A stretch of 64,000 nt of DNA, taken from Scatophagus argus (lineage: Eukaryota > Chordata > Actinopteri > Scatophagidae). The stretch lies in the NCBI RefSeq assembly GCF_020382885.2, contig NC_058504.1, forward strand, positions 17,309,019 to 17,373,018, read 5' to 3'. Both the position numbers and the translations under genes were made by a program. Positions 4,055 to 64,000 of the stretch are shown one piece after another; position 1 is the first letter of the stretch, and each line of letters starts with the position of its first letter. The notes beneath the pieces were generated by a model that saw only the letters and a program-made list of their open reading frames with translations, was not told where the DNA came from and did not search any database.

Positions 4055-4435
4055 TAAAATCTGTTTTTATTGTTAATGTTTACTCACTGTATGTGTGTCT
4101 GGTCTTCTTGTCTTGTACTATACATGTACTTGACATAACTGTACTTTGTCTCTTTGTACGCCTAAGTAGTCAGACTCATCTACACACTCGTATGTGTTTG
4201 TGTTCTCGTATGTAAGCGTGTGTGTGGGGTTTGAGTGTGTGTTTTGTGTGTCATCCAGTGCATTTGAGTCTTTGCACTTCCTGTTTGTAAAACTAATGTT
4301 CCTCTACTAGTAGGTGTGTGAGTCAGTGTGTGCGTGTGTGTCTTCAGTTTGCTAAAGTATAACGATCTAGAGTTTTATTGCCACTATTGCTCCTCACCAC
4401 TTGCCTCTGCCCCTGCACTCCCTCACCCCCTCCAG

Positions 4436-4748
4436 GACAAGACGAGTGCTCTGAGCCTCAGCAATGTGGCGGGAGTCTTCTACATCCTGATCGGCGGCCT
4501 GGGCCTGGCCATGCTGGTGGCACTGGTGGAGTTCTGCTACAAGTCCAGGACTGAGTCGCGCCGAATGAAGGTGTCCACTGCGCGAGCCGCTGCCGCCTCA
4601 GCCGCTCAGGCCTTTCACTGCTCAGCCTTAGACAGTGGTGCTAGCGCCCCCTACACAGAGCTGCAGAGCTACGGCCTGTACGCCAACAACACTGTTAAGA
4701 TATAAGGGCAGAGCACAGCCACGGGGTAGGAAACGCTGTGATCAAGCC

Positions 4749-4781
<33 letters not shown>

Positions 4782-6785
4782 CTGATGACATCCGCCTCCT
4801 CACCCCCCCGCCCATCTAATCGTGATCACAGTAGGGCCTCTCACGGCTTCCACCGCAGTGCAAACGCTCTCCTGTACCTCTCTCTCCTTCTGCCGCTCAG
4901 TCTTTACATCACTGATCTCCTGCAGTGTTGTTGAATCACTTGATTTTAAAATTGCCCTTATGCCTGTTTGTTGATGGCCTAAAGTTTACATTTCTGGCAA
5001 AATAGCTGATATTGTAAAAAACAAAAAGTCATCTTCCCCATGTTAGTATTTTAAGGCTGTTAGCGTAGTATGGCGTGTTCCACCATTAGTTTGTTTTTCA
5101 AGTTTTAAGAATAGTCAACATTTTACACTGTATTATAATGACTTTATGTTGATATAAATATGTCATTTTTATCAGTCACTTGTAGAATGGTAGAATGTGG
5201 TCAGTGGTAGAAACTAAAATTTGTTGAGCCTTGTAGCTAACTAAACATTTCACTTTTTCATCACAGTTTACAAAAATACTCCTTTCACTTTCCTTGTTCC
5301 ATTCCATTACTGCAGTCATTAGGGTAATCTCGTAGCTCACATCCACAAATGAAGAAATTTTTACTTTGCAGCACAGGTGTAAAGGCAATTTGAATCACAG
5401 TGGTACATCTATCTACCTCTGTCGCTCTGAGCAAATCTCTCCCCTGCTCCTTCTTCTCTGTTTGCTGACTGTTTCCGCAAATGCAGGGCCCATTGTGGTG
5501 AACATCCTTTATATGTATACCATAAGGCAGGCCTGGTGCGGCTAATATGTGTTCCATCACTGCTTTAACCTAGAACAGTCTAACTCAAATTGTTTTATAT
5601 TGACAAATCTGAAAGTAATGACTTGTTTCTTATAACAACTGTCTGGGAGATGTGATATCTCTCAGCTGTTTGTCATCTTCTTCATGAGTCAGTTTACAAC
5701 AAACAACCTTTGATTCATTCTTCTAACATCAAAGCCCCTTGCTGATTTACTCTTCATGTAAACAGACAAAAAAAAAACAAAGAAAGAAGGCAAGACACGG
5801 TCAAGACAAGGAGCGCTCTTCTGAATGAATCTCTTATGTTTTAATCAGCCCACGAAGAGACACCTGATCAGTATGCTGATGAGATTGTCGAGGACCCTAT
5901 TAGTCCAGCGGTGTCTTTATGCTATTTGGCTTAAAAGAAATAACAACGCCATTCCAATTAGAGGCCAGAGTAAATCTCCAGTCCCCATGCAGCACTCACC
6001 GATTGCTCCAGATCACATTCGCTTTGCCCCATTTAATCAGCTATAGAATACAAGATGCAGGCAAACACCAAAGAGGCACATATATATGTATGTACACACA
6101 CACACACACACACACACACACGCGTGCGCCACACATCATTAGGTCAGCTTTCAAGCCCAGTGGCTTTTATTACGCTAGACTGTAGAATGGAGCTATTAAA
6201 CCAGTGAGTGAAGCCTCAGCTCCCGTCTTACCGCCCACACTTCGCTCTGCTCCTCCTGTTACAAATTAGGACATTGATGCACAACAGCCAGTACCATGGT
6301 TTACCACCCGCAAACACCACTCAGGCCAGATAAAGAGGGTAGAAACTAGCACCATAGGACTCCCTATCAGCTCATTCAGCCCCTGAATTTCGTGGTGTGC
6401 CAGTACAACACTCACATAATGATATAAACACATATTTTAATGTAATAAAGACAGAAGAAGTTCTAACACTCTGCAGACTGAAAGTACATAATTCTGTGAG
6501 CTGCTAGCTCTGACTTTTGCATAAGCTTTTTCTCCTCTGATTAGGGTAAAATGCACGCATGTTTGTAAGACTGAACTCTTATGTGTGGACTAAATGCAGT
6601 CTGTTTGTTACTGACAGCAATCCATCAATGACGCCATGCGCTGCTCCACCCTGACCAGGATGAGTGGCAACGGGAGCGGTGGAGAGAACGGACGAATCCT
6701 CACCCACGACTTCCCCAAGACCGTTCAGACGCTGCCCTGTATGAGCCACACCGCCAGCATGGGACTGGGTGCCTCTGGGATGTGA
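4436..6785 (+). CDS. gria1: gria1 3' end, long C-tail isoform (AMPA receptor GluA1)
   Basis: Glutamate-gated cation channel subunit of the postsynaptic membrane; only the C-terminal part is in the window. Exons: 4436-4570 (45 aa, phase 0) and 6618-6785 (55 aa plus TGA). The first starts [15 protein letters not shown], contains the fourth membrane helix (about residues 10-31 of the exon) and ends in the juxtamembrane EFCYKSR...RRMK. The second starts [12 protein letters not shown], contains SGENGR-like and SHDFPK-like stretches (here GGENGR and THDFPK) and ends GASGM; this is the GluA1 long tail by homology (mammalian GluA1 ends GATGL). Both junctions are phase 0: donor AAG|GTGTCC, acceptor CTGACAG|CAA. 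The mammalian insert GFCLIPQ before QSIN has no counterpart here, because the preceding bases contain an in-frame stop. The terminal residues resemble a class I PDZ ligand only loosely (SGM rather than TGL). Whether this is gria1a or gria1b cannot be told. Confidence 0.9.
4571..4705 (+). CDS. gria1: gria1 alternative short C-tail (read-through of donor at 4571)
   Basis: If the weak donor AAG|GTGTCC at 4570/4571 is not used, the frame continues for 44 codons to TAA at 4703-4705. The extension begins [13 protein letters not shown] and ends in [12 protein letters not shown]. Known short tails of GluA2 and GluA3 start at the equivalent point after RMK (VAKN... in GluA2) and end VYG-[IT]-ESVKI. 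The alignment of the last residues (Y, YG, [ST]VKI) and the identical exon geometry indicate homology rather than a chance frame. The terminal TVKI fits the class II PDZ ligand bound by PICK1 and GRIP in GluA2/3. The middle is alanine-rich and differs from GluA2. I infer a real alternative isoform. mRNA support cannot be seen here. Confidence 0.65.
4749..4781 (+). repeat. (ATG)11 trinucleotide repeat
   Basis: Eleven uninterrupted ATG units, 44 bp after the short-tail stop codon of gria1. They would be 3' UTR in the short isoform and intron in the long one. A run of methionines in one frame is a by-product of the repeat. Confidence 0.95.
6094..6121. repeat. (AC)n microsatellite
   Basis: About 14 AC units in the last gria1 intron, followed by CGCGTGCG. 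Confidence 0.95.
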
Positions 6786-13722: not shown

Positions 13723-14435
13723 GTGGGATTTATTAGGCAGCAAGTGAATATTTTGTCCTTGAAATGGGAAGCAGAACAGATGGACAAGCGTAAGGATTTG
13801 AGTGGCATTGACAAGGGCCAAATTGTGATGGCTAGACATCTTGGTCAGAGCAAACTGCTGGTCTCATGGGATGTTCCCAGTCTTCAGGGGTCAGGACCTA
13901 CCAAAACAGGCCCAAGGAGGGAAAACCATTGAACCGGCAACAACTCACTAATGCAGGTGGAGAGAGATGGCTGGCCCTTATTTGCCTATTCAATAGAAGA
14001 GCTAGTATAGCTCAAATTGTTGAAAAAGTTAATGCTGGTTCCAACAGAAAGGTGTCAGGACACACAGTGCATCCCAGTTTGTTGCATATGGCACTGTATA
14101 GCTGCAGACCAGTCAGGGTACCAAGGTACATGTCCAGCGCCAGAAGCACCTACAATGGATATGTGAGCATCAGAACTGGACCATGGAGCAATGGAAGAAG
14201 GTGGCCTGGTCTGATCAGTCACATTTTCTTTTCCATCGTGTGGATGGCTGGGTGCCTGTGCGCTGCTTACCTGGGGAATACGTGGCACCATGGCAGTGTG
14301 ATGCTTTGGGCAATGTTCTACTGGGAAACCTTGGATCCTTCCATTCATGTGGATGTTGGCTACTGGCAACCTGGTGCCAGATACCAAAGTGTTATCAGGT
14401 CCAAGCAGTCAAGGCGACCAATGAGGAGATCATGA
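13723..14435 (+). pseudogene. Tc1-like transposase remnant
   Basis: Broken DD34E-type transposase of the element at 13651-15196. The N-terminal DNA-binding part is readable at about 13780-13860. The frame then changes by small indels, and a further readable piece lies around 14183-14346 (EQWKKVAWSDQS...). The part carrying the second Asp and the Glu of the active site is missing. No intact protein can be made. Confidence 0.8.
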
Positions 14436-31603: not shown

Positions 31604-39533
<7,930 letters not shown>

Positions 39534-41249
39534 GATGACTGGGTTATGTCACTAGAACAGCGGCCTCACGGAAAGAAGTGTCGCTTTGTCGTCAAAGCAA
39601 CGAGGACGGCAGAGCTCTTCTTGAGTAATGGTATTGCATGAAGCATTTAAATAACACACTGACAGCTAGCGACACAGTTAATGTCCCTTCTTTGATAACA
39701 CCTGATCGAACCCGACCGATTTCTGTCTTGTCAAACCGATGTTACTTCTAATTTAGCTCTCAAGTGCTCACCTAACAAATTTTCCTTTTCGTATAAAATT
39801 TATCCGTTGACTTTATCATTTTTTTAGCCATAACTTAGTCTTTGGTTTGGGACATATAACGTCTTCCCTTTTGGCTGAATAAAAAAAAAAAACTTCTGAG
39901 TTCCGAGTTCAATGCGACGTCTTCTCCACAGCTCCAAAGTCCGTGAACCGCGACATCAACGGCGACAGAATATTTATGCATTAATAGCCTTGAAAGTGGT
40001 CCGTGTCCGCATTTAACTCCCGCAAGGAAGTCTTCACAGCCACAAAGCTGGGTTACTGTGACACCATTACGTTACATAAATAAAGACCACGTGACGCAGC
40101 AGCGTGCAAACCGATTGGATAAAAGGATGTCTTTCCGCCCTGTTGTGAAACCCAAGGATGCCGAGTTTCATAACATAATTCCTGCGACAAAGGGATGATT
40201 TTTTTCTTTATTCGGTGTAATTAAAAAACGGGGCGGGGTGGCTGAATAGATTGGCACGCGCGTCTAGTCACTGGAGTAATAATATTTTAAATGAAGAGTG
40301 CATGGAATGGAAATCACCCCATCACAGTGAGGAGTATCCCAGCAGAAGACGCTAACAGCCAGGGGGTGGGGTGGCAGGACAGTAACAAGAAAAATCTTTG
40401 ATTACATAGCCCGAAAAGACATGTGCAATTGTACATTTTGTAATGCTTTAAAGTTATGTTATCAAGGAGACTTCAGTTGCTTTTAATTTTTATGTTTTCT
40501 GTTTTGTGTTTTTTTAGGTATAGTAGATTATGCCAAATGGACTTTTGCTGCAGAGTAGCTCCCTGGTGCAACAGATCTCTGTATCTCTGTTACACAAAAC
40601 AGTGCATGTCAAGTGGTCCCTGTCCCACAGAGGCCAACCTGGGTAGTTAAATGAGGCTGGAACCCGTGACACTGCTTAGATTCACATTATAACCTGTATA
40701 TAAACAAAGTGACACATTCTTTGATTATTTTTCTCTAATCGGTTGACATACATGCACACAACCAGGTGAAACTGCCTGTTGTCAACAGTATACCCACTAT
40801 TTTTCAGCAGTGAAATTAATCCCCCAAGGATCTGGTGCCACATTGCCATAACAAAGTTAGGAGATGGAGGAGATGAAGGAGATGTCTTGCTTTCAAGAGC
40901 TGACATTAAACAAGTACTGCTGCTGCAAGAAAATGTTACACAAACAAGGCAATAAAACACTAGTTTGTGCTAAGTGCTTTTTGTGAAAGCTAAGGTGAAA
41001 GGGCTCGAGGGAGGGGGAATGACTGTAAAAGAAATCCAGTCTGTACATAATGACCGTTTAGTAAGCAGTAGGCAAGTTACAGTGACAGAATGCATGGTGG
41101 ACATAACAGAGTGTCTACACATTTAATGGATGCAAATACATTAAATTCTCTGTGATTTCATGTGGTTTCCTAACAAAACGCTGACAGGTTTAAGGAACAT
41201 TTCTGTGCTATTGGGACAGAACTGCACTCCTACAGCAAGTGGAAAGTAC
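39534..41249. other. LONRF promoter region and LONRF-med7 spacer
   Basis: Both genes run to the left, so this spacer is the LONRF 5' region plus the end of med7. A CACGTGAC E-box lies at 40088-40095, about 0.55 kb upstream of the LONRF ATG, near where a promoter would be expected. No TATA box is obvious. No coding sequence is recognised between 40140 and 41249. Confidence 0.45.
40088..40095. promoter_or_regulatory. CACGTG E-box upstream of LONRF gene
   Basis: CCACGTGACG contains the palindromic CACGTG core bound by USF and by MiT/TFE factors (CLEAR-like GTCACGTGAC). The position fits a proximal promoter element; function is inferred. Confidence 0.35.
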
Positions 41250-41438: not shown

Positions 41439-42203
41439 TTAAGCAATTTCATCAATAATACTGCACATGGCAGCATCTTTGTCCCATATTTTGTCCCTCT
41501 TTGACGGAGGGACACTCTTGTCCTGGTGACCTGCTGCCATACAGCTGGCGCCTGCTTCCTCTACATCCATTGGTTCAGTTTTCAGCCTGGGGGCCTGCCC
41601 AGAGGAACAACCAACACTAGATACTGCTGACACACTCCTTGTCCCGTCACCAGCAACATCAGGACCCTCCATCTGTGGTAAGTCATCAGGTAAGGAGGCA
41701 AGGCACCCTTGGATCATCTCCACCACCCTTTCCAGATGTTTCTGGAACCTCTCAGCCGTCTCTAGCCTCTGTCTCTTCTGCACCTCCATCATCACCCTCA
41801 GTGTCTCCCTTGCTTGATGAGGCCTGTATTCATTTATCAGGTGGTGCAAATGAACAAACAGAAGCTTTAAATCCTCCAGCTTCTCTTCTCGCTTTATACT
41901 CCCCGGGCTCTTGATAAGGATGTCCAGCAGGTCCAGAAAGTTCACGAGAATGGACATGTTGAGCTTTTTAAGCTCCCGTTTGTGGTCAAACTGCATAGGA
42001 TGTAGCCTCTCAATGCCTTGGCTCTCCAAAGGCCGGATGATGAGGTCATCACACTGGAACTGGTTGCCAAACATCATGTAGCTATCTCTGATGGGTGGAG
42101 GTGGTTTAGGAGCCAGGCCCTTGCGGATGTTTTCATCTGTGTATTCTTTGATGTACTGCATAGGTGGAGGAGGCAGAGCACTAACCTGCTGTGGTTCACC
42201 CAT
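41439..42203 (-). CDS. med7: Mediator complex subunit 7
   Basis: Nuclear subunit of the Mediator middle module, which links transcription factors to RNA polymerase II; it pairs with MED21. The coding region is a single exon of 254 aa. Start choice: the ATG at 42203 opens [20 protein letters not shown], as in other vertebrates. An upstream in-frame ATG at 42269 lies in intron sequence, because a good acceptor (ACCGTTTCAG) precedes 42212. Visible features: two proline runs (about residues 11-14 and 34-37), the [12 protein letters not shown] and [10 protein letters not shown] segments typical of MED7, [17 protein letters not shown], and a long helical region (about 75-175) forming the coiled coil. 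The tail beyond about 180 is Ser/Gly-rich and ends SIIDEIA. Human MED7 is 233 aa, so the C-terminal linker is somewhat longer. It runs in the same direction as the LONRF gene and head-to-head with itk, 2.7 kb between start codons. Confidence 0.97.
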
Positions 42204-43030
42204 GATGCTGACCTGAAACGGTGACATAAAATCTAAAATCAGCCCGTTTTCCTTCCCCAAGCAATTCACATGTTATTCAGTGTTATGTTATACAGTAACA
42301 GAATAGTTGGTCTTTTACATAAACGTAGCAATGCTGTTCCACAAAATGCTGTATTACAAGTATTTAACACGCTGCATGTACAGCAAAATGTGAAGTATCA
42401 AGAGTAGTCATGACAAGGAACGGCCACGTTCAGACTATTGTCGAGGGGGAAAAAAGCATTTCTGCAGTAATACATGAGTAAGCTTAATTTTTATTATTGT
42501 GGTTCGTGTGGTTGTTAACTTCATGTTCTCCTGAGTATTTTAATTCCCAACGACGAGATATGTTTCACGTGATTCTCTTGTGTCTCGTGTGTAAAAATAT
42601 TAATCTGCAAGTTTACTTGGAACTACAGATGTCCCAGAAAATACAATGAAGTCAGAAGTATAAAATCTGTCATTTAAATGTGGAGTAAAATGTGTCCAGT
42701 GAAAAGATTTTATCGTAAGTATGCACGAACCAATTTGGCCTATTTCACAAAACGGGTGAGGGCTAATGTAATAATCATTAATTCACTGTAACGGCTACCT
42801 GCCAGAACAATTTAGGAGGAGATACCTTCATTTACTATTTAACGTGTAGCGTATAGTTTCCGTGCACAACAAAGCGTACACTTTAAGAGACAAATGCAGC
42901 TAACAATTTTAGCTATGTAGCTAGCGGTTGTTTTATTTGTGCTAACCTCTACTAACTAGATAGCTTTACGTCGGTACCAAAAACTAACTTCACAAAATAG
43001 GAAAAATACAGCAATGGTACTTCTACAAAC

Positions 43031-44742: not shown

Positions 44743-44937
44743 AAGTGTGTGTGCACGAGTGTGGGTGAGCTAGTACAACCCATTTTTTGCCATAAGGATG
44801 TGGTTTACAGAGCAATTTTTTGCCGGAAACCCCACAGCTTCCATCAAGTTATCATACTTCTCTCACTGCCTGCGCTCAGTCTCTCTCTACAAGCCAAAAG
44901 GCATCAGTGTTTCTTGTAGCATTGTTCAGCCGTTACC

Positions 44938-50800
<5,863 letters not shown>

Positions 50801-57591: not shown

Positions 57592-64000
<6,409 letters not shown>

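Follow-up and report, generated by a model that had tools for sequence, protein, structure and literature searches.

In mammalian AMPA receptors the C-terminal tail is long in GluA1 and short in GluA2, and the tails of the subunits are held to govern subunit-specific receptor trafficking in synaptic plasticity. A gria1 gene of the fish Scatophagus argus raises the question of whether a GluA1 subunit may also be made with a tail of the GluA2 type. The 3' end of this single gene lies on contig C12, in the window analysed here (the whole 64-kb stretch of DNA, 64,000 nucleotides), which was compared with the genome of the same species (570.7 Mb searched, 48 contigs).

The gene that hosts the short tail is gria1, as identified by its TM4 exon, by a last exon coding for a GluA1-type long tail and by the flip and flop exons upstream. 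The TM4 exon through RMK matches PDB GluA chains (best E about 2e-21 among the 60 of 147 matches shown) and compares at 97.8% with that of a sister gria1 copy, while the pore-region, flip and flop exons are present in order directly upstream of the window (L027, same genome). Neither the TM4-plus-tail peptide nor the long tail matches any Pfam family at E up to 0.01. The long tail joins RRMK straight to QSIND, and the mammalian segment GFCLIPQ, present in the PDB GluA1 alignment, has no counterpart because a TGA at 6612 lies in frame upstream of the acceptor; the acceptor may have been shifted upstream in mammals. The coordinates and translation proposed earlier for 4436-4705 were borne out (TM4 exon, 44 codons, TAA at 4703-4705), and the boundary of the last exon, placed at 6617 in the same proposal, was moved to 6618 (Table 1).

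Table 1. Features of the 3' end of gria1 in the window (positions are those of the window)
Feature	Position	Strand	Basis or remark
gria1 TM4 exon, common part (DKTSALSL...SRTESRRMK)	4436..4570	+	phase 0 at end; translation, PDB GluA matches
Inner (long-tail) donor AAG/GTGTCC	4571..4576	+	-0.49 bits; U1 duplex -5.2 kcal/mol, 20th of 136 GTs
Candidate short C-tail, 44 codons	4571..4702	+	frame open straight after RRMK; single genomic place
TVKI codons, class II-type (V-K-I) PDZ-ligand-like end	4691..4702	+	translation, alignment
TAA, short-tail stop	4703..4705	+	translation
GG/GCAG, where gria4 has GG/GTAG and one gria3 copy AG/GTAG	4706..4711	+	suggestive only
Candidate outer (short-tail) donor GGG/GTAGGA	4726..4731	+	20 nt past stop; U1 duplex -8.9 kcal/mol, 4th of 136 GTs
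AATAAA	6444..6449	+	only exact one between short-tail stop and last exon
Acceptor AG of last exon	6616..6617	+	common to both forms in proposed model
Last exon, coding part, GluA1-type long tail (QSINDAMR...GLGASGM) and stop	6618..6785	+	translation 6618-6782, stop 6783-6785

Some other features of the window were recorded. The neighbouring genes are a RING-finger gene, LONRF-like by eye (32743-40000, minus strand), med7 (41442-42272, minus strand, Pfam E 6.5e-48), a tyrosine-kinase gene, itk-like by eye (44920-50000, plus strand, PK_Tyr_Ser-Thr E 4.9e-8), and a gene judged cyfip2-like by eye (57592-64000, plus strand), of which the piece tried had no Pfam match. Remnants of Tc1/mariner-type transposases lie at 13836-14432 (plus strand) and 35017-35316 (minus strand), with HTH_Tnp_Tc3_2 below the cut-off and DDE_3 just above it. 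Rfam gave no match at gathering scores in the 64-kb window.

The short tail follows the (M/L)K of the TM4 exon in phase 0 and with no intron between, as in AMPA receptor short C-tails, and the GluA2-like tail with a class II-type (V-K-I) end described in the earlier note is indeed present in the translation. Its ending has the pattern Y-x-x-Y-x4-T-V-K-I, in which the tyrosines at positions 11 and 8 from the end align in register with those of AMPA receptor short tails. The V-K-I and the two tyrosines are the residues held important in known short-tail ligands, and the threonine of TVKI occupies the position of GluA2 Ser880. The same note had called this ending very close to that of GluA2/3, which is correct insofar as the end resembles it beyond chance, but overstated in degree: over the final 11 residues it agrees with GluA2 or GluA3 at 5 only (Y, Y, V, K, I), and the first 28 residues show no recognisable relationship, being alanine-rich, diverged and not alignable with confidence to known short tails. 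Homology does not extend over the whole 35-36 residues of these known tails, only the end being alike in a tail of 44 residues. When the whole window tail is compared by tblastn with the gria4 tail, the match (E = 0.67) is no better than a chance match in L014. The GluA2 segment VAKNAQNINP, which we take to be the NSF/AP2-binding segment, is absent from the window tail, gria4 having VDLSPPHCPS at that place. The window tail would work like AMPA short tails and has an end probably homologous to theirs, but is not classed as an ordinary member of their group.

How such a tail could be reached depends on the splice donors. The bases of the inner donor are read as Val-Ser codons in the short form, and a second candidate donor is present past the stop (Table 1; ranks are among the 136 GTs in 4301-6700, scored by a donor matrix). 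This outer donor has the best U1 pairing of the ten GTs in 4540-4800, and its nine bases are identical to those of the gria4 post-stop donor; by this matrix it reaches only 1.39 bits, a score as low being obtained by about 17% of donors drawn from that matrix. Its distance from the stop is 18 nt greater than in gria4, and the old place has a C for the T. The nine bases directly after the stop tell little about the age of the tail: they agree at 5 of 9 with gria4 (a level also attained at 286 of the 6,922 window stops) and at 5 of 9 with one gria3 copy (L011; 235 of 6,922), whereas the 3 of 9 shared with the other copy (L013) represent no signal (2,954 of 6,922). With GC standing where gria4 has GT, the outer donor may have shifted by 18 nt, and the GG/GCAG left there is perhaps a former or GC-type donor. 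The region 4540-4760 around the donors folds no better than shuffled sequence (z = 1.39; 185 of 200 shuffles at least as stable). An ATG/GAT triplet-repeat run occupies 4749-4780, about 45 nt past the short-tail stop and just beyond the candidate donor.

In the mechanism that we propose, two competing 5' splice sites would end the TM4 exon, both being joined to the acceptor at 6617. Splicing at the weak inner donor (4571) would yield the usual long tail of GluA1. If the outer donor at 4726 were chosen instead, 155 extra bases would be kept and 4725 joined to 6618; translation would then continue for 44 codons to the stop at 4703-4705, and the last exon would become 3' UTR. The usual decay rule involves 50-55 nt from stop to junction, and since the stop would lie 20 nt before the last junction, the short-form mRNA would escape nonsense-mediated decay. 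We infer the use of the outer donor, the escape from decay and the protein itself, and we assign a probability of about 0.68 to the reading that the window gria1 chooses between a long and a short tail by alternative 5' splice-site use, in an arrangement homologous to that of gria4 and GRIA2. The earlier note had likened the donor, AAG/GTG with the GTG read as Val, to that of GluA2; the arrangement is the same in gria4 of this genome, and an alternative donor in the penultimate exon is described for human GRIA2 (PMC8257547).

The other gria genes of the genome provide a context for this arrangement. Seven gria TM4 loci were found, their names resting on TM4 and tail sequence with no tree; of the 9 and 10 matches in two genome searches, the weaker ones on C9, at C5:21.79 Mb and at C14:12.30 Mb (E 1e-4 to 1e-3, 40-46% identity) were judged by eye to belong to other ionotropic glutamate receptors and left out of this count. 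The sister gria1 (L002/L010) has a strong inner donor AAG/GTGAGA (6.45 bits) followed by an unrelated frame, with no short tail. Similarly, the gria2 gene (L006/L014, C2:324254, plus strand) has a strong inner donor AAG/GTACGT (5.63 bits) and no adjoining short tail, a last exon of the GluA2-long type being present further down (L026:7035). Both copies of gria3 lack a GT at the inner place (TTG and CTG instead of GTG), end in ...YGTESVKI and have donors 2 and 3 nt past the stop, leaving the short form only. One gria4 (L007/L015) has a weak inner donor AAG/GTGGAC (0.19 bits), a Val-initiated short tail ending in ...YGSEGVKI and an outer donor GGG/GTAGGA 2 nt past the stop. The second gria4 (L004/L012, C14:20752229, plus strand) has AAG/GTGGAG (0.58 bits) and a tail frame of 71 residues that ends in ...GYGSDGEADKM without VKI, with a good donor 67 nt past the stop, far enough for decay; by its sequence this tail looks as if it is being lost. 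Among the five loci with an inner GT, and five only, VKI tails thus go with weak donors (-0.49 and 0.19 bits), the degenerate tail with 0.58 bits, and the absence of a tail with strong donors (6.45 and 5.63 bits). When the GluA2 short tail served as query against the whole genome, only the two gria3 copies and one gria4 came up; the search missed the window tail, so that diverged tails could escape it. With a single gria2 found, GluA2 may be long-tailed only in S. argus.

The main rival to alternative splicing, which we consider unlikely, is that the short form is ancestral and unused in the present lineage, its frame being still undecayed. Such a relic would be in keeping with the tail-less sister gria1, the degenerate end of the second gria4 copy, an old donor place that is not GT and the drift of the first 28 residues. 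However, V-K-I and the two tyrosines are still there with no stop or frameshift, and the weakness of the inner donor contrasts with the strong one of the sister gria1. Moreover, a simulation indicates that such a tail would outlast only a small divergence without selection. In 3,000 neutral runs (frame, stop and VKI kept without indels; indels assumed at one tenth of substitutions), survival was 26.6% at 0.05 substitutions per site, 6.7% at 0.1, 0.4% at 0.2 and 0.13% at 0.3, and none survived at 0.5. Conserved intronic sequence between the two gria1 copies was ruled out, no alignment being better than E = 0.15 (only matches of 12-25 bases, E 0.15-0.54). The few neutral survivors, together with gria1 introns that no longer align, suggest in this model that the short tail was under selection until at least recently, if it is old; a loss of the short form in the recent past is possible.

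The same short tail could also come from a transcript that is left unspliced and is polyadenylated within the intron, the route on which the earlier note had relied and which we find improbable and unnecessary. The weakness of the inner donor would favor it, as would the AATAAA at 6444 that precedes the acceptor and the variant signals that occur earlier in the intron, for example ATTAAA at 6195. However, with the AATAAA it would need about 1.75 kb of intronic 3' UTR, whereas gria3 and gria4 of the same genome have donors just past the stop and the window has one at 4726; these donors weaken retention with polyadenylation as the sole route. The window donor, 20 nt past the stop, pairs better with U1 than the inner one, so that alternative 5' splice-site use is the likelier route, and a lack of unspliced polyadenylated transcripts would therefore not refute the isoform.

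A chance origin, in which an open intronic frame would end like GluA2 by accident, appears very improbable, even if 44 open codons are not rare in themselves in G+C-rich DNA, much of the tail is low-complexity alanine and BLAST alone would miss it, as the tblastn value given above illustrates. When the tail was shuffled and scored against the two short tails available from PDB alignments (GluA2 and GluA4-short), 0 of 20,000 shuffles equalled it in ungapped score over the last 12 or the last 16 residues, whichever of the two was used; for the last 8 residues the score was reached by 4 and 1 of 20,000, and the gapped global score by 7 of 5,000 (GluA2) and 2 of 5,000 (GluA4-short). A genomic null gave a similar picture: among 6,960 stop-ended open segments of 11 residues, taken in six frames from the window and six 10-kb gria loci (L010-L015; 124 kb), the tails of two gria3 and one gria4 scored 54, 54 and 50 against AMPA short tails and the window tail 27.8, the next best segment reaching 15.8. 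In addition, gria4 has a short tail at the same place and phase. On these sequence comparisons the short tail is a real, non-random feature. Composition was dropped as evidence of coding (G+C 0.61 in the extension, 0.55 in the next 135 bases past the stop). An origin of 4571-4735 as a repeat or a retrocopy was excluded, a DNA search of the genome with this segment matching its own place only. A search for relatives in viral contigs confirmed none of 20 pattern matches. Finally, although alternative splicing often acts on dosage, a non-coding role in which outer-donor or retained transcripts would lower GluA1 dosage is hardly credible: with only 20 nt between stop and candidate junction the usual decay rule would not apply, and the peptide end resembles functional tails.

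The tail is more likely to be old than to have been invented in fish, because its place, phase and ending are common to gria3 and gria4. The Val-initiated read-through of the inner donor is also common to gria4, which, together with the shared place, phase and ending, points to a two-tailed ancestor. The layout is probably homologous to that of the two-tailed gria4 and human GRIA2, and from these shared features the two-tail layout is most likely older than the divergence of the four AMPA subunit genes of vertebrates. The suggestion of an ancestral tail kept in fish is thus retained for its age, but the tail is not general for fish GluA1, as the sister gria1 is without it. More tentatively, and with somewhat less than even confidence, we suggest that the textbook division between a long, activity-driven GluA1 and a short GluA2 bound by PICK1/GRIP is not ancestral: a pre-duplication gene would have had both donors and both tails, of which its copies dropped one, and the division would be partly reversed in this genome, with a gria1 capable of the short tail and the only gria2 found long-tailed alone. 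The gria set of one genome would in this way suggest how two tails were divided after gene duplication.

The long tail of the window ends in A-S-G-M, fitting the class I PDZ pattern. In the short form it would be exchanged for a class II-type ligand, like the one through which GluA2 attaches to PICK1. The predicted change is that the long GluA1 tail would be lost and class II PDZ binding gained, which falls short of a full GluA2 identity. The NSF/AP2 segment of GluA2 being absent, the proposal that such channels would traffic like GluA2/3 could therefore apply at most to the PDZ part. We infer PDZ binding, trafficking and age alike from the sequences compared. With the tail swapped, the receptor would rely on other proteins for its transport to and from synapses, and if the reading is true, a vertebrate GluA1 gene able to splice in such a tail would amount to a tail-swap experiment performed by nature: tail rules would not be tied to subunit identity, and the role of each tail could be tested in fish.

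Full-text literature searches (titles and abstract openings, in a collection with few subscription papers) returned no report of a short-tailed GluA1, and the terms 'C-terminal', 'PDZ', 'GluA1' and 'splice' were absent from the searched portion of the text of an eLife 2018 survey of metazoan glutamate receptors (PMC6307864); an isoform of this kind may be present already in automatic genome annotations. For human, the excerpts of an RNA-seq survey (PMC8257547) list no C-terminal alternative for GRIA1, the sole junction meeting the relevance criteria in brain besides flip/flop being in the 5' UTR, and its authors state that the approach is not adapted to intron retention. According to the same excerpts, GluA2-long, which is without the type II PDZ motif, is produced through an alternative donor of the penultimate exon, this donor is missing in GRIA3, which has no GluA3-long, and both tails of GluA4 occur in brain, GluA4-short at about 40% global abundance (PMC8257547). 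The long tail of mammalian GluA1 binds SAP97 via a class I PDZ motif (PMC2806832), the GluA2 C-terminus binds the PICK1 PDZ domain (PMC8634674), and a cloned zebrafish gria2 alpha cDNA with the long C terminus is mentioned (PMC4018279).

Compared with these systems, the window gene is the same as mammalian GluA1 by its TM4, long-tail and flip/flop exons, mammalian GluA1 being known with the long tail only. Its candidate short form ends in T-V-K-I where GluA2 ends in S-V-K-I, but unlike GluA2 it is without VAKNAQNINP. The short tail of GluA3 has the same place and ending as that of the window; however, GluA3 has no inner donor, and hence a short form only. The arrangement is like that of GluA4-short (GluA4c) and GluA4-long in gria4 of this genome, with an inner donor at RMK/V, a candidate outer donor of the same nine bases past the stop, and a tail ending with the same Y-x-x-Y and V-K-I. 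It differs from GluA4-short in that the subunit is GluA1, the tail has 44 residues as against 35, and the candidate outer donor lies 20 nt past the stop instead of 2.
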